A DNA stretch of 38,860 bases from Candidatus Eiseniibacteriota bacterium (lineage in GTDB: Bacteria > Eisenbacteria > RBG-16-71-46): NCBI GenBank assembly GCA_025357055.1, contig JANXPZ010000019.1:1-38860 (forward strand). Reading direction: 5' to 3'. Below the pieces are notes generated by a model that was not told the DNA's origin, ran no database searches, and saw nothing but the letters and a program-made list of their open reading frames with translations. Below, piece after piece: positions 5,657 through 36,602 of this stretch (positions are counted from its first letter, which is position 1; every line of letters starts with the position of its first letter). The position numbers were made by a program, and so were the translations under genes.

Positions 5657-6388
5657 ATGAGGATCCGTGGCCTGTCGGTCTTGGCGTGCCTCTTGATGAC
5701 GTGCGCCCTTGCGGGGCCGGTCGCAGCCGGTGTCGCCCCCTACGTCCGCCTCGATTACGGCGGGAGCCAGTTGCGGATGACCGACGTGAACCTCGGCATC
5801 CGGAGGGCGGAGGCCGCGCTCAGGACGGAGGGATACCCGGCCGCCTTCGAGACGGTCGGATCCAGTTACGGCCCGGGTGCCTCCGTGGGTCTGTGGATCC
5901 TCCCCGCGTTCCGGGTCGGAGCCACCTATTCGTATCTGCGGGCCGTCCGATACAACCGCCTCGACGTGCCGGACTCGCTCTCCTACTCCGACGACCTGGA
6001 CTTCCGGATCCACGAGGTCGGCGCGGAGGCCGCGGTGCGCATCCGGCGTCTGGCGGGGTTGACGGTCGGCATCAACGTGGCCCAGGGCTGGGCGAAGCTG
6101 ATCGAGGGGTACTCGCGCGAGGACGCAGGCGGATCGAATTCCTGGGATGAGACGTCGCACCGGACCCGGACGACCGGCGGCGCATTCGTGGGCCTGGACC
6201 AGACCAACGCAGCCGGCGTCGCGGGGTTCGTCCGGGTGGGCTTCCAGTACCGCGACATGGGCCGCATGCCCACCCGGCGGACCTCGTTCGACGGCACGAA
6301 CACGGTCCAGACGACGGGCAGGACGATGTGGCTGGACTACAGCGGCGTCTACGCCACGGTCGGTCTCGGCTTCGACCTCGTGCGCTGA
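5657..6388 (+). CDS. Exported outer-membrane beta-barrel protein, function unknown
   Basis: A 243-residue protein whose ATG follows an excellent ribosome site (AAGGAGGAG at 5645-5653), so the longer in-frame starts upstream were rejected. The first ~25 residues are a signal peptide (MRIRGLSVLACLLMTCALAG, then PVAA). The rest has short alternating hydrophobic/polar strands ending in YATVGLGFDLVR, as expected for an eight-strand OmpA/OmpW-type barrel with a C-terminal strand. The internal stretch ASVGLWILPAFRVGATYSYL is barrel-like. I do not recognise a named family. It stands apart from tryptophanase by 156 bases and is convergent with the CPBP gene. Confidence 0.6.
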   Translation: MRIRGLSVLACLLMTCALAGPVAAGVAPYVRLDYGGSQLRMTDVNLGIRRAEAALRTEGYPAAFETVGSSYGPGASVGLWILPAFRVGATYSYLRAVRYNRLDVPDSLSYSDDLDFRIHEVGAEAAVRIRRLAGLTVGINVAQGWAKLIEGYSREDAGGSNSWDETSHRTRTTGGAFVGLDQTNAAGVAGFVRVGFQYRDMGRMPTRRTSFDGTNTVQTTGRTMWLDYSGVYATVGLGFDLVR

Positions 6389-28017: not shown

Positions 28018-28587
28018 ATGACCGAACCCGCCCTCCCGACCCGCGAGCAGGCGCTCGCGCTGCTGCACGAGTGGATCCAGAATCCGAACCTGCGCAAGCA
28101 CTGCCGCGCGGTCGAAGCCGCGATGCGCCACCACGCGCGGCGGCTGGGCGCCGACGAGGAGCGCTGGGGCCTGGCCGGCCTCATCCACGACTTCGACTGG
28201 GAGCGCCATCCCGATGCCGCGCGCCACCCGGTCGAAGGGGTGAAGGTGCTGCGCGGCCTGGGCTGGCCCGAGGACATCTGCCAGGCGGTGCTCGGACACG
28301 CGACCCACACCGGGGTGCCGCGCGAGACGCCGATGGCGCAGATGCTCTACGCCTGCGACGAACTCTGCGGGTTCCTGGTGGCCTGCGCGCTCATCACGCC
28401 CCACAAGTCGCTCGACGAGGTCGAGGTGGCGGGGGTGAGGAAGAAGATGAAGCGCGCCGACTTCGCCCGGAACGTGAGCCGTGAGGACATCGTGAGCGGC
28501 GCGACCGGGCTGGGCGTGGAGCTCGATTCGCACATCGCCGCCACGCTCGACGCGCTGCGCGGCATCCGGGACGAGCTGGGGTTGTAG
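28018..28587 (+). CDS. HD-domain phosphohydrolase
   Basis: A 189-residue cytosolic protein with the metal-binding H...HD...H...D set: HCRAVEAAMRHHARRLG, GLIHDFDWERHPDAARHPVEG, VLGHATHTGVP and YACDELCGFLVA. This matches small HDIG-type hydrolases often annotated as hydrolases of nucleotides or phosphorylated small molecules; the substrate is unknown. The C-terminal half (KKMKRADFARNVSREDIVSGATGLGVELDSHIAATLDALR) is conserved with relatives of this size. GAGGA precedes the ATG. Confidence 0.8.
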   Translation: MTEPALPTREQALALLHEWIQNPNLRKHCRAVEAAMRHHARRLGADEERWGLAGLIHDFDWERHPDAARHPVEGVKVLRGLGWPEDICQAVLGHATHTGVPRETPMAQMLYACDELCGFLVACALITPHKSLDEVEVAGVRKKMKRADFARNVSREDIVSGATGLGVELDSHIAATLDALRGIRDELGL

Positions 28588-28655: not shown

Positions 28656-28706
28656 TCAGGACCGGGGCCCCGAGGGGGCTGCTCCAGGCGTCACGCCCAC
28701 GATAAA

Positions 28707-28922
28707 TCGACGCCGATCGTTCGTCGCTCGGGGACTTTCGACTCGACTCGTGTCCCTGGGTGGCGCTCAACCGGCGTCGTCATCACTGTCCGCCGTCGGA
28801 CTCCCCAAGGAGCCCGTTCCCGGCCCGGCCCCACTCCATGCGTGGGGGGTGAGTTCACGCCCGACCTCGTTGCGTCGTGGCGTCACGAACAACATTGTTC
28901 CGCGCCCGGGATCCGTCAAGGG
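28707..28922 (+). repeat. Interspersed repeat, copy A (upstream of cytochrome operon)
   Basis: A 216-base non-coding element that fills most of the 436-base gap between the HD-domain gene and the cytochrome operon. It matches 35411-35625 in the same orientation at about 80% identity by hand alignment, with a few short gaps. Identical stretches include TCGACGCCGATCG, GTGGCGCTC, AAGGAGCCCGTTCCCGGCC, TGCGTCGTGGCGTCA and the terminal ATCCGTCAAGGG. Internal inverted repeats kept in both copies: GACGCCG with CGGCGTC, GGGGAC with GTCCC, and CCCCAC with GTGGGG. The indels differ from multiples of three, so reading frames shift between copies and no shared protein can be encoded. Bases 28590-28706 before it hold only the hairpin listed separately. 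Confidence 0.8.
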
Positions 28923-28936
28923 CTGGGCTGAAGAAT

Positions 28937-28976
28937 TTCCTGACCGGGAAGATGCACCTTCCCACCGAACGGAAGG
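28937..28976 (+). repeat. Two tandem inverted repeats before the cytochrome promoter
   Basis: TTCC...GGAA (28937-28950, six-base loop) and CCTTCC...GGAAGG (28957-28976, eight-base loop) sit between repeat copy A and the -10-like TAGTAT. They share the half-site TTCC/GGAA and lie 20 bases apart, as paired operator sites often do. Confidence 0.35.
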
Positions 28977-28987
28977 GCGACTAGTAT
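28959..28987 (+). promoter_or_regulatory. Candidate promoter of the redox-signalling operon
   Basis: TTCCCA (28959-28964), a 17-base spacer and TAGTAT (28982-28987). A second A/T-rich palindrome, AGTACT, follows. The leader would be about 30 bases with the strong GGAGGGAGG ribosome site at 29011-29019. The -35 overlaps the second inverted repeat. Confidence 0.4.
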
Positions 28988-29023
28988 CCGTAGTACTACT
29001 CACCCCGTTGGGAGGGAGGCTGA

Positions 29024-29746
29024 TTGAACACCGGGTCCTTCCGCGTCCTGTGGTCCTTGCCAGTACAGGTTGGCCTGCTGGTCCTGCAACTCGTCGCCCC
29101 CGCGGCCGCCACGAGCGCCGCCCGGAGCGCGCGCGATTCCTCGCGGGTGGCTCCGATCGAGCTGCGCCTGCCCGCCGACATCGTCTATCACCTTGTCGTT
29201 GGCCCCGATAGCGCGGTCGTCTTCAGCCACCAGACCCACGTGGCGTTCGCTGGGAACCGCTGCACCGGCTGCCATTCACGGCCGTTCCCCATGCTGCGCA
29301 GGGGGCCGGCCCAGGAACATCGCGACATGAACGCCGGGGGTGGATGCGGGATGTGCCACGATGGGAAGAAGGCGTTCGGGATCCTGGACTCCGGCGAATG
29401 CCGCACCTGCCATTCCGGGGCCCCGGTGACTCGCGGGACCGCCGCGGGGGCCCGGACTCAGTCGGGCGCCGCCGCCCGCCGCCTGCCGGGACCCCACGCC
29501 TACCCCCGCAGCGAGTCCTCCCCCGGGATCGTCTCGTTCCGGCACGAGCCGCATCTGGTCGGCGCTGGTGGCTGTGCCGAATGCCACCCGAAGCCTTTCC
29601 AGATGACCTCCGCTCCCCCGCGGCCCGGTGGCGGGATGCACGAACGCGCCGCGTGCGGGGCCTGCCACGACGGGAAGAAGGCCTTCGCCGCCGAAGACCC
29701 CGACGCCTGTTCGCGCTGCCACGTCGATGCCGGAGGCCAGCCGTGA
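29024..29746 (+). CDS. Periplasmic hexahaem c7-type cytochrome
   Basis: A 240-residue exported electron carrier with six CxxCH haem motifs (CTGCH, CGMCH, CRTCH, CAECH, CGACH, CSRCH). They form two homologous triheme units, each reading FSHxxH or FRHxxH ... CxxCHxxPF.M ... CG.CHDGKKAF ... C..CH, i.e. two cytochrome c7 domains. A signal peptide (VQVGLLVLQLVAPAAATSA) puts it outside the inner membrane. The start is TTG: it follows an ideal GGAGGGAGG site at the right spacing, and no ATG or GTG in frame comes before the signal peptide. It overlaps the ferredoxin subunit gene by four bases. I infer that it takes electrons from, or passes them to, the quinone-linked membrane subunits encoded next; no terminal reductase is present. 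Confidence 0.9.
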   Translation: MNTGSFRVLWSLPVQVGLLVLQLVAPAAATSAARSARDSSRVAPIELRLPADIVYHLVVGPDSAVVFSHQTHVAFAGNRCTGCHSRPFPMLRRGPAQEHRDMNAGGGCGMCHDGKKAFGILDSGECRTCHSGAPVTRGTAAGARTQSGAAARRLPGPHAYPRSESSPGIVSFRHEPHLVGAGGCAECHPKPFQMTSAPPRPGGGMHERAACGACHDGKKAFAAEDPDACSRCHVDAGGQP

Positions 29747-30525
29747 GCCGGGGGATCCTGTTCGATTCCACCCGCTGCATCGGTTGCGGCGCATGTTCGG
29801 CGGCGTGCAAGGAGCAGAACGGCCTGCCCCCCCGGATCGAGGAGCGGACCACGGCGTACACCTGGACCGTCGTCGAGCGCCGGGGCGGGGCGAACGTGCG
29901 CCGGCTCTGCATGCACTGCCTCACGCCGACCTGCGCCTCGGTGTGCCCGGTCGGCGCCATGAAGAGGACGGCGGCGGGGCCGGTGGTCTACGACTCCAAA
30001 CTCTGCATCGGGTGCCGCTATTGCATCATGGCGTGCCCGTTCGAGGTCCCGAAGTACGAGTGGGACCGGCCGATCCCGCTGGTGGGCAAGTGCGTGATGT
30101 GCGCGCCGCGGGTCGCGGCCGGCCAGGCGGTCGCCTGCGCCGTGGTGTGCCCGACGCGCGCCACGGTCTTCGGCGAGCGCGAGGCGCTCGTCCGCGAGGC
30201 GAGGGAGCGGATCGCGTCGGAGCCGGCGCGCTACGTGGATCACGTCTACGGGCTCGACGAGGCCGGCGGCACCTCGGTGCTGCTGCTCTCGGGGGTGCCG
30301 TTCGCGCGCCTCGGGCTGCCGGGCGGCCTTCCGCGCGAGCCGCTGCCCACGCTCACCTGGCAGGTGCTCTCGCAATTGCCCGACATCGTCATGGTCGCGG
30401 CGGTGTCCCTCTTCGGCGTCCACTGGATCACGAGCCGCCGCGTGGAGGTCCGCCGGAGCGAAGGTCCCGACGCGCCGGTCGAGCCGCCCTCCGGAGCGCC
30501 CCGCGACGAGCGGCCGGGACCATGA
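29743..30525 (+). CDS. HybA/NrfC-like four-cluster ferredoxin subunit, membrane-anchored
   Basis: A 260-residue protein with the four cysteine groups of the DMSO-reductase-type iron-sulfur subunit: TRCIGCGACSAACKEQN, LCMHCLTPTCASVCPVGAM, LCIGCRYCIMACPFEVPKYEW and CVMCAPRVAAGQAVACAVVCPTRA. A C-terminal helix (DIVMVAAVSLFGVHWI) anchors it to the membrane, as in HybA. It starts at GTG inside the cytochrome stop (GTGA). No twin-arginine signal is seen at the start (MSRGILFDSTRC), so the clusters probably sit on the cytoplasmic side or the protein is carried by a partner; this differs from HybA, which has a Tat signal. It links the NrfD subunit to the cytochrome. Confidence 0.88.
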   Translation: MSRGILFDSTRCIGCGACSAACKEQNGLPPRIEERTTAYTWTVVERRGGANVRRLCMHCLTPTCASVCPVGAMKRTAAGPVVYDSKLCIGCRYCIMACPFEVPKYEWDRPIPLVGKCVMCAPRVAAGQAVACAVVCPTRATVFGEREALVREARERIASEPARYVDHVYGLDEAGGTSVLLLSGVPFARLGLPGGLPREPLPTLTWQVLSQLPDIVMVAAVSLFGVHWITSRRVEVRRSEGPDAPVEPPSGAPRDERPGP

Positions 30526-31721
30526 GCGCGGCGCACGGAGTCCCGCGCCGGCGCCCGCGCATCGGCTTCTGGACCGCGGTCTTCTTCGCCGTCCTCGCCG
30601 TCTTCCTGTTCGTCACGGTGCTGCGCTTCACGCGAGGCCTCGGCGCGACGACGAACCTGAGCGACCGCGTGCCCTGGGGCCTGTGGATCGGATTCGACAT
30701 CCTCTGCGGGGTCGGCCTCGCGGCCGGGGCGTTCACGATCATGGCGGTCGTGCACCTGTTCCACCTCCGCCGCTTCGAGCCGATCGTGCGTCCCACGGTG
30801 CTGACCGGGTTCCTCGGCTACCTGTTCGTGGTGTTCGCACTGCTCTTCGACCTCGGGCAGCCGTGGCGCATCTGGCACGCGCTGGTGTTCTGGAATCCGC
30901 ACTCGGTGATGTTCGAGGTCGCCTGGTGCGTGATGCTGTACACCACGGTGCTGACGCTCGAGTTCGTGCCGCTCGTGCTCGAGCGCTTCGGCTTCGAGCG
31001 GGCCCGGCGCATCCTGCACGGGGTGAACACCCCGCTCGTGGTCGTCGGGGTGCTGCTCTCCACGCTCCACCAGTCCTCGCTGGGGTCGCTCTACCTGATC
31101 GTGCCCCAGAAGCTGCACCCGCTCTGGTACTCGCCGATGCTGCCGCTGCTCTTCTACGTCTCGGCCATCGGCGCCGGGCTCGGGATGATCATCGTCGAGT
31201 CGCACCTGAGTGGCCGGGCCTTCGGCCGGAAGCTCGAGATGGACCTGCTCGAGCCGCTCGGGCGGGCGATGGTCGTGGTGCTCGCCGTGTTCGGCGTCCT
31301 GCGCCTGCAGTCGCTGGCGCGCAGCGGAGCGCTGCCGCTCGCCCTGCAGCCCACCTACGAGGGCCGGATGTTCCTGATCGAGTTCGGGCTGGGCGTCGTG
31401 CTGCCCGTCGCGCTGCTGGCCTGGCCGCGCATCCGCAACTCGTCCACCGGACTCGTGACCGGCGCGGCCTTCGCTGTGCTAGGCTTCATCATGCACCGGC
31501 TCGACGTGAGCGTGACCGGTCTCGAGCGCGCGAGCGGCACGCACTACGCGCCGACCTGGATGGAGGTCATGGTGTCCGTGGGGCTGGTCGCCATCGGATT
31601 CGCCGCCTTCGCGCTCGCGGTGCGCTTCCTCCCCGTCTTCCCCGTGCAGGGCCACGCGCCCGCCGGCGGGTCTGCGCCCGCCCGGCGGCGGGGCGCGGAG
31701 TCAGCGGGAGGGGAGCCTTGA
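30522..31721 (+). CDS. NrfD/HybB-type quinone-interacting membrane subunit
   Basis: A 399-residue integral membrane protein with about ten helices of the NrfD/PsrC/HybB fold. The characteristic N-terminal block DRVPWGLWIGFDILCGVGLAAG, FDLGQPWRIWHALVFWNPHSVMFEVAW and TLHQSSLGSLYLIVPQKLHPLWYSP is close to HybB of hydrogenase-2 in its pattern. Such subunits exchange electrons with the quinone pool and some pump protons. It overlaps both neighbours by four bases. No hydrogenase large subunit is nearby, so it must work with the cytochrome and ferredoxin subunits as a free-standing quinone:cytochrome module. Confidence 0.9.
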   Translation: MSAAHGVPRRRPRIGFWTAVFFAVLAVFLFVTVLRFTRGLGATTNLSDRVPWGLWIGFDILCGVGLAAGAFTIMAVVHLFHLRRFEPIVRPTVLTGFLGYLFVVFALLFDLGQPWRIWHALVFWNPHSVMFEVAWCVMLYTTVLTLEFVPLVLERFGFERARRILHGVNTPLVVVGVLLSTLHQSSLGSLYLIVPQKLHPLWYSPMLPLLFYVSAIGAGLGMIIVESHLSGRAFGRKLEMDLLEPLGRAMVVVLAVFGVLRLQSLARSGALPLALQPTYEGRMFLIEFGLGVVLPVALLAWPRIRNSSTGLVTGAAFAVLGFIMHRLDVSVTGLERASGTHYAPTWMEVMVSVGLVAIGFAAFALAVRFLPVFPVQGHAPAGGSAPARRRGAESAGGEP

Positions 31722-33742
31722 AGCCGGGCATCGGGATGCTGGCGATCCTCGGGGTGGCGGTCGTGACGGCCGCCGTGATCGGGGTCATGTCGGTCATCAT
31801 CCTCCGCGCCCACCAGGGGGCGTTCATCGCCCAGCTCACCCGCAGCGCCGACCAGTTGAGCGAGACCATCGCCAGCACGACCCACCACGACATGCTCGAG
31901 AACCGGCGGGACGCGGTCCACCGCGAGATCGTCACGATCGGCCGGCAGCAGGGCATCGAGCGGGTCCGGCTCTTCAACGGCACCGGGACCGTGATGTTCT
32001 CCTCCGACGAGGCCGAGATCGGCCGGGCCGTCGACAAGCGGGCCGAAGCCTGCTACGCGTGCCACGCGGCCGGGCGTCCGCTCGAGCGGCTGCCGATCCA
32101 CGCCCGCGCGCGCATCTACCGCGCGCCGGACGGGCACCGCGTGCTCGGCATGATCCGGCCGATCGCCAACCAGCCGAGTTGCTGGTCCGCCGACTGCCAC
32201 GCGCACTCGCGCGGGGAGTCGGTGCTCGGCGTCCTCGACGTGAACCTGTCGCTCGCCGAGGCCGACCGCCAGATCGCGCGGGACCAGCGCAACCTCATCT
32301 TGCTCGCCGTGCTGGCGATCGCGGCGAGCAGCACGCTGTTGTGGTGGCTGAGCCGCCAGCTGATCCTGCGTCCCGTGGCGATGCTCATCGCGAGCACGCG
32401 CCGGGTCGCCCAGGGCGACCTCTCGACGGCCGTGCCCGCGACGGCACGGCACGAGCTCGGGGACCTCGCGCGCGCCTTCAACCACATGACGAGCCGGTTG
32501 AACGAGGCGCAGCGCCAGCTCGCCCAGGCCGACAAGCTCGCCTCCGTCGGGCGGCTCGCCGCCGGGGTGGCGCACGAGATCAACAACCCGCTCACCGGCG
32601 TACTCACCTACGCGTCGTTCCTCGAGAAGCGCGCCGAGAACGATCCCGAGACGCGCGCGGACCTGGGCGTCATCGTGCGCGAGACCAAGCGCTGCCGCGA
32701 GATCGTGCGCGGGCTCCTCGACTTCGCCCGTCAGACCCCGCCGAAGCGGCTGCCCACGGACCTCAACGAGGTCGTGCGGCGGGCCGCGACGATCGTCACG
32801 AACCAGCTGGCGCTGGCGCACGTGGGCGTGGAGCTCGAGCTGGCGGCCGAACTCGAGCCGGTGCCCGCGGACGCGAACCAGATCCAGCAGGTCGTGGTGA
32901 ACCTGCTGCTCAACGCGGCGGACGCGATGGCGGGCGACGACGGGTCGAGGGGCGGCTCGATCCGGGTGCGGACCTCCGCGGTGGCGGTGCCGCCGCGCGG
33001 GCACGCCACGATCCGCAGCGCGACGTGTCCCAGGGGCTGCGATCTGCTCGACAGCCACGTGCGCCTCGCGGGGGTCCCGGCGATCCGCGTGATCCGGCGT
33101 GTCCTGGACCGCGAGGCCGTCGTCCACCTGGATCCGGTGTACGGCCGCACGAATCATCGCGCGTCCGAGCCCTGCGACGAAGGCGTCCTCGCCACCTACC
33201 TGTGCCCCGCCTGCCGCACGCGGCTCGAGGTGCCGGAGCGCCGCTGCGGGGAATGCGGGGCGCCCATGTTCGGCGTGCAGGTGGCGCGTTTCGGCCTGGC
33301 GGACTGGTGCACGCGCAAGGGTTGTCCCGGCAGCTGCTGGGAGGCGCTCGACACGATCGGACCGCAGCCGTACGCGCAGATCGAGGTGGCGGACACGGGG
33401 CGCGGCATCACGGCGGAGGAGATGGACCGGTTGTTCGAGCCCTTCTTCACGACCAAGGGCGCGCGGGGCACGGGACTCGGACTGGCGGTGACCTGGGGCA
33501 TCGTCGAAGGCCACGACGGCTCGATCGCCGTCGAGAGCGAGCCTGGCCGCGGCACGCGCTTCACCCTGCGCATCCCCTGCCAGGTGCTCGATCCCGCCGG
33601 CGCCGAGGCGCGGACCGGGCGGCCGACCCCGATGCCCGACGCACGCGGCGTGGCGGCCTCGGGGCGGACCGCGCCGGTCGCCCCCCGCGTGACGGCCCGA
33701 CCGGCCGGCGGCACCCGGGACGAACCACGAGGCGAGTCATGA
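31718..33742 (+). CDS. c-type-haem sensor histidine kinase with Cys-rich ATPase insert
   Basis: A 674-residue inner-membrane kinase. TTG at 31718 overlaps the nrfD-like stop and follows GGGAGGGGAG; an in-frame ATG lies six codons later. After the first helix (IGMLAILGVAVVTAAVIGVMSVIIL) a periplasmic domain of about 160 residues carries a CxxCH haem motif (Cys112-Cys115-His116 in CYACH) and a CX4CH variant (Cys155-Cys160-His161 in CWSADCH). A second helix (about 189-210), HAMP and a dimerisation domain with His286 (GVAHEINNPL) follow. In the ATPase domain, a ~120-residue insert between the N box (near 395) and the G1 box (VADTGRGI, ~557) holds ten cysteines, including CPRGC (437-441), a CPAC...CGEC zinc-ribbon pair and CTRKGC. 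I infer a redox sensor for the neighbouring respiratory module. The two receivers that follow are its likely targets. Confidence 0.88.
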   Translation: MKPGIGMLAILGVAVVTAAVIGVMSVIILRAHQGAFIAQLTRSADQLSETIASTTHHDMLENRRDAVHREIVTIGRQQGIERVRLFNGTGTVMFSSDEAEIGRAVDKRAEACYACHAAGRPLERLPIHARARIYRAPDGHRVLGMIRPIANQPSCWSADCHAHSRGESVLGVLDVNLSLAEADRQIARDQRNLILLAVLAIAASSTLLWWLSRQLILRPVAMLIASTRRVAQGDLSTAVPATARHELGDLARAFNHMTSRLNEAQRQLAQADKLASVGRLAAGVAHEINNPLTGVLTYASFLEKRAENDPETRADLGVIVRETKRCREIVRGLLDFARQTPPKRLPTDLNEVVRRAATIVTNQLALAHVGVELELAAELEPVPADANQIQQVVVNLLLNAADAMAGDDGSRGGSIRVRTSAVAVPPRGHATIRSATCPRGCDLLDSHVRLAGVPAIRVIRRVLDREAVVHLDPVYGRTNHRASEPCDEGVLATYLCPACRTRLEVPERRCGECGAPMFGVQVARFGLADWCTRKGCPGSCWEALDTIGPQPYAQIEVADTGRGITAEEMDRLFEPFFTTKGARGTGLGLAVTWGIVEGHDGSIAVESEPGRGTRFTLRIPCQVLDPAGAEARTGRPTPMPDARGVAASGRTAPVAPRVTARPAGGTRDEPRGES

Positions 33743-34137
33743 CGGAACGCTGCGACGTCCTGGTGGTGGACGACGAGCCGGTCGTGTCGGACGCGATCCG
33801 GCTGGTCATCGGCCACGCGGGCTTCGAGGTCACGGCGGTCCCCGACGCGGAGACCGCGCTCGCGCATCCGGCGCTGGACGGCTGCCGGCTCGTCATCTGC
33901 GACCTGATGCTTCCCGGGCTCTCCGGGTTCGACGCGCTGCAGTCGATGCGCCTGCGCCGTCCGGAGCTGCCCATCGTGATGACCACCGGGTACGCCACGC
34001 CCGAGCAGGAGGAGCACGTCCTCGCCGCGGGTGCCACGGCGTTCCTGCCCAAACCTTTCGACGATTCGGAGCTGTTGACCCTGGTGCGGCGCGTGCTTTC
34101 CCGGGCGTCGGCCGCCGGTGAGGAACGGAAACCATGA
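33739..34137 (+). CDS. Single-domain response regulator (receiver only)
   Basis: A 132-residue CheY-like protein. It has the acidic pair in VLVVDDEP, the phospho-acceptor Asp in LVICDLMLPGLSG, the Thr in IVMTTGYATP and Lys in FLPKPFDDSEL. No DNA-binding or enzymatic output is attached. It overlaps both neighbours by four bases, so kinase and regulators are produced together. It probably receives phosphate from the haem kinase and acts by binding a partner protein, possibly as a phosphate relay or sink. Confidence 0.92.
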   Translation: MTERCDVLVVDDEPVVSDAIRLVIGHAGFEVTAVPDAETALAHPALDGCRLVICDLMLPGLSGFDALQSMRLRRPELPIVMTTGYATPEQEEHVLAAGATAFLPKPFDDSELLTLVRRVLSRASAAGEERKP

Positions 34138-35282
34138 CTGCTCTGCTGATGATCCTGCTGGTCGTCTTCTTCGTCATCGCCGACCTGATCGTGCGCACGG
34201 CCTCGAAGCGAATGGCCGCGGCGCGCGAGCAGCGTGAGCGCGAGGCCGTCCTGACCAGCGCGCTCCAGCTCTCGTTCGCCGACGAGGCGAAGAGCCTGAA
34301 GCGCGCGGAGCTGCCGGGCGCGCGTGCGCGCATCCTCGCCGTGGACGACGAACCCGTCGTGCTCGACAGCTTCCGCAAGATCCTGGTGCTCGCCGGCTTC
34401 AGCGTGGACACCGTGGAGAGCGGCCCCGAGGCTCTCACCCTGCTGCGCGCGCATCCGTATGACTTCCTGTTCACCGATCTCAAGATGCCCGTGATGGACG
34501 GCGTGGAGGTCGTGAAGGCGGCGCGGCACCTGCGGCCCGATCTCGACGTCGTGGTGATCACCGGCTATGGCACCATCGAGACCGCGGTCGAGACCATGCA
34601 GTTCGGCGCCGTGGACTACGTGCAGAAGCCGTTCACCGAGGAGGAGCTGGTCACGCTGGCGAAGCGCCTGCTCATCAAGCGCGAGGCGCGGCTCGAGGCC
34701 CAGCTGCGGCCGGCGGTGCGCGTGGTCGCCCCGGCGCGGGCCGAGAGCGTGGCCGCGGGCGAGTACTGCGTGCCGGGCGGGGCATTCGTCTCGCCGGGGC
34801 ACGCCTGGGCGCGGATCGACCCGGCCGGCCAGGTCTGGACGGGGCTCGACGACTTCGCGCGCAAGGCGTTGAGATCCGTGGAGCGCGTCGAACTTCCGGC
34901 GGTGGGCACGCGGGTGCGGCGGGGCGAGCCGCTCTTCACCGTGCGCCGGGGGGGCGAGGCTGTGCGCATCCTGGCGCCGCTGGCTGGTGAGGTCACCCAG
35001 GTGAACGAGGAGCTGAAGCACGCGCCGCGGCTGGTCATCGAAAGCCCCTACGACCGCGGTTGGGCCTGCCTGCTGCGGCCGGCCGACCTCGCCGCGGACT
35101 TGGCGGGCCTGCGGATCGGCAAGCCGGTCGTGGCCTGGTACCAGGACGAGGTCACGCGCCTGCGCAAGGAGCTGGAGGCCTCGGGTCTGCCGGAGTGGGC
35201 GTGGGCCGACCTCGAGAGGCGCTTCTTCGGTTCCGGCGTGGCGGTGAATGCGCCAGTGACCGGGACGGTGGACGCGGGGTGA
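34134..35282 (+). CDS. Membrane-anchored receiver fused to a GcvH-like domain
   Basis: A 382-residue protein of three parts. Residues 1-21 are a membrane helix (LLMILLVVFFVIADLIV). Residues ~62-190 are a receiver with DDEP, the acceptor Asp in FTDLKMPVMDG, TGYGTIE and the Lys of VQKPF. Residues ~215-340 resemble glycine-cleavage H protein (FVSPGHAWARIDPAGQVWTG, VELPAVGTRVRRGEPLFTV, LAPLAGEVTQVNEELKHAP, YDRGWACLL). In true H proteins a lipoyl-lysine occurs in ESVKAVSDL; the aligned segment here is RRGGEAVRI, with Glu (or Gly) in place of the Lys, so lipoylation is unlikely. No DNA-binding domain is present. It is last in the six-gene operon and probably acts at the membrane. Confidence 0.88.
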   Translation: MTALLMILLVVFFVIADLIVRTASKRMAAAREQREREAVLTSALQLSFADEAKSLKRAELPGARARILAVDDEPVVLDSFRKILVLAGFSVDTVESGPEALTLLRAHPYDFLFTDLKMPVMDGVEVVKAARHLRPDLDVVVITGYGTIETAVETMQFGAVDYVQKPFTEEELVTLAKRLLIKREARLEAQLRPAVRVVAPARAESVAAGEYCVPGGAFVSPGHAWARIDPAGQVWTGLDDFARKALRSVERVELPAVGTRVRRGEPLFTVRRGGEAVRILAPLAGEVTQVNEELKHAPRLVIESPYDRGWACLLRPADLAADLAGLRIGKPVVAWYQDEVTRLRKELEASGLPEWAWADLERRFFGSGVAVNAPVTGTVDAG

Positions 35283-35289
35283 CTCCGCC

Positions 35290-35319
35290 GGGCGGCCCGT
35301 CGCTCCGGGTCCGTCGCCC
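35290..35319 (+). terminator. Hairpin after the redox-signalling operon
   Basis: Outer stem GGGCG/CGCCC and inner stem GCCCG/CGGGT (ending in a G-T pair) around TCGCTC, beginning eight bases after the last stop codon. It is followed by GATCA rather than a T-tract, so it may stall polymerase weakly or protect the mRNA end. Confidence 0.35.
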
Positions 35320-35410
35320 GATCAGGTCGAGGGCTCCGGCGGCGCGGCGATCCGCCTGCACACCGCACACCCGTCTGCGATCCAGCGGGTGGGTGATGCG
35401 CCCGAAATAC

Positions 35411-35625
35411 TCGACGCCGATCGCTCGTCGCTCGGGGACTCTCGGTTATGCCCGTGTCCCGGGGTGGCGCTCGACCGGCGTCGTTCGCAGTGTTGGCCGT
35501 GGGACTCGCAAAGGAGCCCGTTCCCGGCCTGGCCCCACTCTATGCGTGGGGTGGGTTCACGTCGCGACCTTGCTGCGTCGTGGCGTCATTCACAATGTTT
35601 GTCCCGGGGCCTCATCCGTCAAGGG
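35411..35625 (+). repeat. Interspersed repeat, copy B (downstream of the operon)
   Basis: A 215-base element in the 459-base gap between the operon and the next gene, in direct orientation with copy A at 28707-28922. The same inverted repeats are present: CGACGCCG with CGGCGTCG, GGGGAC with GTCCC, CCCCAC with GTGGGG. An AT-richer AATACT just before it is placed like TAAAT before copy A, but promoter activity is not established. Bases 35320-35410 and 35626-35741 show nothing else. Several short ORFs cross it, but their frames are not kept in copy A. Confidence 0.8.
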
Positions 35626-35741: not shown

Positions 35742-36602
35742 ATGAAGGGCCGGCACGGCAGGTTCCGGTTCCACGGCCTCGTGGTGGCGGCCGCACCGTG
35801 CATTGGCGCGATGCTGGCCGCGGCGGTACTGCTCTGCTCGACCGTCACGCCGGCGATGACGGCGCCGGCGGCGCAGGTGCCCGACCCGCACGCGGTTCAG
35901 CCGGAGCGTCCGACGCTGGCCACCCATGCGCACACGGTCGCTCCCGGCTGGGTCGAGCTCGAAGCCGGGATCGAGCGCGACCGCCTGTCCGACGGCGGGC
36001 GGATCGAGAGCGCGGTCACGACCGCCAAGATCGGGCTCACGACGCACACTCAACTCGGCCTCACGGCCAACGCGCTGCGCGAACTGGCGCGCGACTCGCG
36101 CACCTCGGGTGTTGGTGACCTCGGGCTGGCACTCAAGTGGCGGCTGCTCGACCATGGGCCGCTGATCGGCGACTTCGCCCTGCTTCCCGGCCTCAAGCTG
36201 CCCACCGGGTCGCGGAGCCGCGGGACCGGGACCGGCACGACCGACGCGTCCCTGGTCCTGATCTCCAGCCACGCCTTCGGGCCGCTGTCGCTGGACGTGA
36301 ACGTCGGCGGGACGGTGCGGAGCGGGGATGGCGCAGCGGCGCCGAAACGCGCGGTGCTCTGGACTGCCGCGCTCGGTCTGCCGCTGGCGGGGACGCTCGG
36401 CTGGGCCGCCGAGTTGTATGGTCTTCCGGGCACCGCCGGTCCGAGCGGCGCGGCGCCACTGCTCGCCGCGCTCCTCGGTCCCACGTGGACGCCGCGTCCC
36501 TGGCTGGAGTTGGATGCCGGCGCGATCGTCCCGGTCTCCGGTCCCCAGCCCCATGCGCTCTATGCGGGGCTGGTGTGGAACACGAGGAAGTTCTGGCATT
36601 GA
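35742..36602 (+). CDS. Exported beta-barrel-like (transporter/MetA-degradation-like) protein
   Basis: A 286-residue exported protein. Its signal peptide (GAMLAAAVLLCSTVTPAMTAPAA) is followed by a barrel-like chain with LATHAHTVAPGWVELEAGIERD, GLTTHTQLGLTANALRELARD, SGVGDLGLALKWRLLDHGPLIGDFALLPGLKLPTG, AELYGLPG and the C-terminal LELDAGAIVPVSG. The GVGDLGLALKWR...ALLPGLKLPTG pattern is that of the phenol-degradation (MetA-pathway) outer-membrane family. Function is unknown. The ATG at 35742 was chosen for the signal peptide; GAAGGAG lies upstream at a longer than usual distance. DUF1003 follows 27 bases later. Confidence 0.6.
   Translation: MKGRHGRFRFHGLVVAAAPCIGAMLAAAVLLCSTVTPAMTAPAAQVPDPHAVQPERPTLATHAHTVAPGWVELEAGIERDRLSDGGRIESAVTTAKIGLTTHTQLGLTANALRELARDSRTSGVGDLGLALKWRLLDHGPLIGDFALLPGLKLPTGSRSRGTGTGTTDASLVLISSHAFGPLSLDVNVGGTVRSGDGAAAPKRAVLWTAALGLPLAGTLGWAAELYGLPGTAGPSGAAPLLAALLGPTWTPRPWLELDAGAIVPVSGPQPHALYAGLVWNTRKFWH

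Follow-up and report, generated by a model that had tools for sequence, protein, structure and literature searches.

A duplicated repeat flanking a cytochrome operon very probably represents a small-RNA gene uncatalogued in Rfam

A repeat of ~215 nt is present twice in the window, the whole 38,860-nt stretch of DNA analysed here, and very probably represents two copies of a small-RNA gene, ~180 nt long, that is uncatalogued in Rfam. We consider it likely, from sequence comparison, that each copy constitutes a stand-alone minus-strand gene with a promoter of its own, a terminator hairpin (H4 in Table 1) and a product that would act in trans, and that this gene was duplicated around a redox operon. 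Homologs in eight other genomes share the fold and the conserved ends of the window copies and lie at one syntenic place. This adds an RNA family that is unrecognised by Rfam 15, with predicted ends, fold and synteny.

The two copies (28707-28922 and 35411-35625) are 82-85% identical; direct comparison gave 141 nt at 85% and 61 nt at 74%, and blastn gave 82% over ~215 nt. They lie in direct orientation, 6.7 kb apart (28700-35622), and bracket a cytochrome/NrfD/two-component operon. The assembly to which the window belongs, as contig C143, comprises 3.3 Mb in 234 contigs. Neither blastn nor the covariance model R3 (see below) found a third copy of the repeat in the whole 3.3 Mb genome, the best further blastn match being 24 nt long (E 0.015). 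The initial annotation had read the repeat as a structured RNA with three stems, GACGCCG/CGGCGTC, GGGGAC/GTCCC and CCCCAC/GTGGGG, that stay in place while the loops drift. All three stems are present in both copies; the first closes a long hairpin whose upper part is the second, and the third is a separate hairpin. In a two-copy model only one of 42 pairs was changed on both sides, a count equalled by 263 of 500 shuffles. The two window copies alone prove little, and the claim of a structured RNA is solid only with the eight further homologs.

The homologs were collected with covariance models. R1, built from the two window copies and run over 385 genomes, returned a full-length match in genome G002 (73.4 bits, E 6.6e-15) and a match of 26.2 bits in G012, both near an HD-domain gene that also precedes copy 1. 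When the flanks of the HD gene were searched in 18 loci, G008 (28.8 bits), G014 (28.6 bits) and G006 (13.9 bits, E 0.026) joined the set. R2, built from these five foreign sequences and run over 47 genomes, found G007, G004 and G009 as well as both window copies (52.7 and 48.1 bits), neither of which had been used to build it. R3, built from all eight foreign copies, recovered both window copies from the first to the last model position on the minus strand (Table 1). Carriers of the RNA number nine of the 20 genomes of the family, the window genome included. The other 11, five of which belong to genus g2, gave no credible match with R2 or R3 under strict filters, by which diverged members may be missed, and R3 gave no credible match outside the family among 385 genomes.

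Several covariance-model matches were dropped, namely G020, G014:C87 and G065 from the R1 search; G028 (26 bits, E 5e-4), G023 (three places), G022 (two places), G001, G006:C11, G010 and G007:C116 from the R2 search; and G119 and G028 from the R3 search. G028, G065 and G119 were dismissed after reading the DNA, which held no full element, and the others by score, partial extent or printed alignment. Reverse-strand matches of the palindromic H4 and a second G004 match, due to a contig overlap, were not counted as copies. Blastn with the repeat found nothing real in plasmids, phages, 145 other relatives or 46 other genomes of the phylum (overlapping sets), and a 30-nt match in locus L011 was rejected as falling in an apparent coding region. 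A 19-nt stretch that is invariant between the two copies was scanned over genome contigs and hit three records, in which similarity does not span the element (L033 is the longest, with 56 nt at 71% and 52 nt at 79%); in hindsight, the family is conserved elsewhere than in this stretch. Viral contigs gave no match to one exact pattern of the H3 core of the homologs, a result that says little since the query was that single exact pattern.

Pair counts were taken from alignment A12, without the window copies, because in alignment A9 the model had displaced helix 1 of both window copies by two positions and so inflated the double changes; in alignment A11 the window copies were off by one in H3. 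The eight foreign copies align over 48 pairs, with 87.2% of cells paired and 13 pairs carrying double changes (16 such cells), values that none of 500 shuffles reach. With these added homologs, the reading of the repeat as a structured RNA whose stems are retained while its loops drift is borne out. The covariation score was reached by one of 500 shuffles and the number of further pair types by 74 of 500. When partners were moved by 1-3 columns, 37-48% of cells were paired and 2-10 pairs had double changes (10 versus 13 at -2 columns), a comparison that is biased towards the proposed structure over its slid versions, the structure having been derived from folds of the same sequences. Since the slid controls reach up to 10, the double-change count alone is not decisive.

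All ten copies have the same order of parts on the minus strand: TTGAC, then after 30-32 nt the first stem with the predicted +1, a total of four hairpins and finally a T-rich tail. Counted through H4, the predicted RNA measures 159-177 nt; with the tail it comes to about 180 nt. The linker after H1 is often GAAC, H2 is CCCAC/GTGGG, and a purine-rich linker separates H3 from H4. H3 is near GGCCG-AGN-GCGG-RA-CCUC-UGA-GGGG-RA-CCGC-CGGCC in most homologs; the window copies differ in that its internal loop has turned into a more continuous stem.

A repeat known from two copies may suggest the wrong strand as long as homologs are lacking, because a palindromic hairpin scores well both ways. The strand first assumed here was the opposite of that of the RNA, which most likely lies on the minus strand. 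With the ten copies side by side, GTCAA is the sole invariant part of an otherwise drifting tail, and every copy has an A-rich string ahead of the long hairpin. Read on the minus strand, that string becomes the T-rich tail past a putative terminator hairpin, and the invariant GTCAA of the opposite end, which reads TTGAC there, is the likely promoter. The AT-rich string that the initial annotation had noticed before both copies is thus real, and occurs at all ten, while the promoter role suggested for it gives way to that of a probable minus-strand terminator tail.

Seven copies have 30 nt between the -35 hexamer and the first stem, and three have 31-32 nt; identity, high in the hexamer itself (Table 1), is 0.39 in the spacer, 0.42 in the -10 hexamer and, further upstream, 0.27-0.39. 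TTGAC is found at only 19 of the window's 77,720 positions, and the pattern TTGAC-N18-[TA]NNNNT, searched on both of its strands, has exactly two matches, which are the two copies. A looser promoter pattern gave 25 matches in 14 fetched loci, only eight of which were the RNA gene. No TTGAC was seen upstream of 12 6S loci of the phylum (one of them in a carrier) that were inspected by eye. The 10 nt past H4 contain 4-7 T in all ten copies, the tails of the window copies being among the weakest. A generic consensus scan for promoters and terminators called neither at either window copy, and at the two homologs tried it left the proposed promoter and the H4 terminator uncalled.

The alignment energy was -55.9 kcal/mol on the minus strand versus -39.2 kcal/mol on the plus strand (z -11.8 versus -8.0), and on minus none of 100 column shuffles was as low. 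The mean single-sequence z was -3.26 on minus and -2.08 on plus; it was lower on minus in nine of the ten copies, copy 2 among these as a near tie, and copy 1 scored better on plus. Without H4, the core was more stable on minus in nine of ten, the exception being copy 2, whose core is more stable on plus. H4 itself was more stable on plus in four of ten (copy 1, -42.8 versus -36.0; copy 2, -47.2 versus -41.8; G009; and G012, by 0.4). G-U versus A-C cells leaned 24 to 14 towards minus (p 0.14), on a structure taken from minus-strand folds. The plus strand was given up as the RNA strand on the z values, the TTGAC/tail layout, core stability and alignment energy.

Table 1. Features of the two repeat copies and of their neighbouring genes in the window.
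Feature	Position	Strand	Evidence
Copy 1, predicted small-RNA gene (-35 to T-rich tail)	28700..28919	-	RNA itself ~28883 down to ~28700; R3 match 28883-28702, 55.4 bits, E 7.5e-13, model 1-180 of 180
Copy 1, candidate -35, TTGACG	28914..28919	-	TTGAC in 10/10 copies, 30-32 nt before +1; identity 0.91 versus 0.27-0.42 in neighbouring segments
Copy 1, candidate -10, AATGTT (family consensus TNNAAT)	28891..28896	-	17-nt spacing; A+T 0.68 versus 0.21 in spacer; final T in 9/10; uncalled by generic promoter scan
Copy 1, hairpin H1, starting at predicted +1	28857..28883	-	Minus-strand fold; pair counts in 8 foreign copies
Copy 1, hairpin H2 (CCCCAC/GTGGGG)	28829..28847	-	Fold and pair counts
Copy 1, hairpin H3, best-conserved arm among homologs, altered in window genome	28792..28824	-	Fold and pair counts
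Copy 1, hairpin H4, predicted terminator (GACGCCG/CGGCGTC, GGGGAC/GTCCC)	28708..28779	-	Fold and pair counts
Copy 1, T-rich tail past H4, ATTTATCG on minus	28700..28707	-	T 0.56 in the 10 nt after H4 (10 copies) versus 0.15 in the next 20
Copy 2, predicted small-RNA gene	35404..35622	-	R3 match 35586-35403, 48 bits, E 5.5e-11; promoter spacing
Copy 2, candidate -35, TTGACG	35622-35617	-	
Copy 2, candidate -10, AACATT	35599-35594	-	
Copy 2, predicted +1	35586	-	
Copy 2, hairpin H4	35483-35412	-	
Copy 2, T-rich tail	35411-35404	-	
HD-domain gene, convergent neighbour of copy 1, outside RNA	28018..28587	+	Pfam HD, E 5.1e-9
c7-type cytochrome gene, divergent neighbour of copy 1, outside RNA	29024..29746	+	Pfam Cytochrome_C7, E 6.6e-29
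Outer-membrane-type protein gene, divergent neighbour of copy 2, outside RNA	35742..36602	+	Weak Pfam Phenol_MetA_deg match, E 1.2e-5

The layout suggests that a sigma-70-type promoter (TTGAC, ~17 nt and a TNNAAT-like -10) would start an RNA of ~180 nt whose first nucleotides form H1. H2 and H3 would come next, and H4 with its T-rich tail is predicted to end transcription unaided. The conserved promoter-like end, a fold that stays constant and flanking genes that change argue for trans action of the product, which is most likely a regulatory RNA and would either pair with mRNAs or bind a protein via H3 and the unpaired linkers. The family appears to have been inherited vertically at a locus bounded by the HD gene and a dnaE-type gene, and a duplication in the window genome would have produced the copies that now flank the cytochrome c7/NrfD/histidine kinase/response-regulator operon.

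All eight other carriers have the RNA flanked by the HD gene, which is convergent with it, and by the dnaE-type gene, which is on the same strand and upstream of the RNA. The HD gene is 74-78% identical and on the same side of the RNA in all eight; its distance from the RNA is about 3-4 kb in G007 and G004, and in G004 the HD/dnaE placement was deduced across a 141-nt overlap of two contigs at the RNA. The dnaE-type assignment comes from Pfam and NCBIfam matches for one or two genes and from tblastn similarity for the rest, the NCBIfam match above cut-off being to a superfamily model and to no equivalog or subfamily model. Variable neighbours include DUF3224 (G012) and other genes on the HD side, and TonB_C (G002) on the dnaE side.

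Copy 1 keeps the HD gene in the window genome, and the dnaE-type gene is on another contig (locus L132, G000:C89:12182-15763), with one in-frame TAG. The gene next to copy 1 is the c7-type cytochrome, its operon ends in an atypical response regulator, and copy 2 follows the operon. The product of 34134-35282 fuses a response-regulator receiver domain to a glycine-cleavage-H-like domain; relatives of this protein occur in G013, G016 and G019 at 60-72% identity, adjoined in G013 and G019 by kinase and NrfD-type homologs. Upstream of the orthologous c7 cytochrome operon of G019, at the position that copy 1 takes in the window, there is a long inverted repeat, CGGACGATTCATGA ... TCATGAATCGTCCG (L030, ~6150-6300).

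These surroundings bear on the rather unlikely reading that the RNA lies on the plus strand, as a riboswitch-like leader of the cytochrome and outer-membrane operons or as a plus-strand small RNA. Both window copies do lie 100-120 nt upstream of plus-strand genes, both beat shuffles on plus (z -2.1 and -2.9) with an H4 that is more stable there, and G002 has a plus-strand TonB_C gene downstream, before dnaE. However, no homolog precedes the same kind of gene, as the next gene on that side is the opposite-strand dnaE in seven of the eight other carriers and TonB_C in G002. The orthologous cytochrome operons of G013 and G019 were fetched, and the RNA is absent upstream of them and from anywhere else in either genome; the cytochrome operon is therefore not the constant partner of the RNA. 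A cis-regulatory leader was rejected, its position upstream of the same gene not being conserved. On plus, the alignment folds less stably, and neither the invariant GTCAA nor the A-rich string has an obvious function.

Under the preferred reading of a stand-alone minus-strand gene, it is distinctly unlikely that the product represents a new class of RNA, a clade-specific global regulator whose structured H3, with its GG-RA-CC loop, would bind a protein and not act as antisense, and whose window duplicates, with H3 changed alongside the apparent absence of CsrA, would serve the redox operon. A DNA-level element, i.e., a bidirectional terminator or a hairpin-rich spacer between convergent genes that is no gene itself, is very unlikely. 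The element sits between the convergent HD and dnaE genes in all eight other carriers, and H4 with its T-rich tail could terminate dnaE transcripts; yet H1-H3, unneeded for termination, covary, a spaced -35/-10 pair with a drifting spacer is conserved inside, and the copies of the window genome do not lie between HD and dnaE.

CsrA is present in all eight other carriers and the GG-RA-CC internal loop of H3 is retained in most homologs, as might suit a CsrB-like sponge that sequesters CsrA via GGA motifs. Such a role is nevertheless highly improbable because GGA is not enriched (44 observed versus a shuffle mean of 51.9, and only 19 mostly unpaired over the ten copies) and the window genome itself yielded no CsrA. 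CsrA occurs in 18 of the 20 family genomes, with no match in the window genome (G000, 97% complete) or in G005. The hairpin-prone mobile element offered as an alternative in the initial annotation, here taken to be MITE-like, HEARO-like or omega-RNA-like, would account for strong hairpins and two copies in one genome but is extremely unlikely, as each of the eight other carriers has a single copy at the one syntenic locus, with no match to Rfam and none by blastn in plasmid or phage records.

The earlier statement that no known RNA family is recognised agrees with the comparison with Rfam models, none of which significantly matched at either copy. Rfam 15 gave nothing at gathering score in the window, and at E up to 10 the matches around both copies, like those in five homologous loci, did not exceed chance level. 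The match of mir-934, an animal microRNA model, to H4 of copy 2 (17.4 bits versus a cut-off of 80, E 1.3) means no more than the presence of a hairpin. 6S RNA (RF00013) was rejected, with no match at the element up to E 10; the 6S RNA of the window genome lies elsewhere (G000:C115:15183-15405, 63.5 bits). The 6S cut-off is passed by 36 of 47 genomes of the phylum. No title found in literature searches describes this RNA, and its absence from print is not claimed.

HEARO, which belongs to Rfam's models, and omega RNA are structured, as is the RNA repeated in the window, but the latter has no Rfam match and no dispersal in other carriers, and there is no TnpB/IscB-type nuclease among the neighbouring genes that were scanned. 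CsrB/RsmZ-type CsrA sponges share with it the tandem hairpins and the stand-alone gene, and differ in the GGA enrichment and the CsrA partner that are missing here. 6S RNA is of similar length, structured and likewise encoded by a stand-alone gene, but its shape is one rod with a central bubble, whereas this RNA folds into four tandem hairpins. From trans-acting bacterial small RNAs in general it is set apart by having no significant Rfam match and a structured arm, H3, as its most conserved part, with no obvious open seed; it resembles them in its promoter-like end, its length within 150-200 nt, its final hairpin with a T-rich tail, its intergenic location and its apparent vertical inheritance in a narrow clade.
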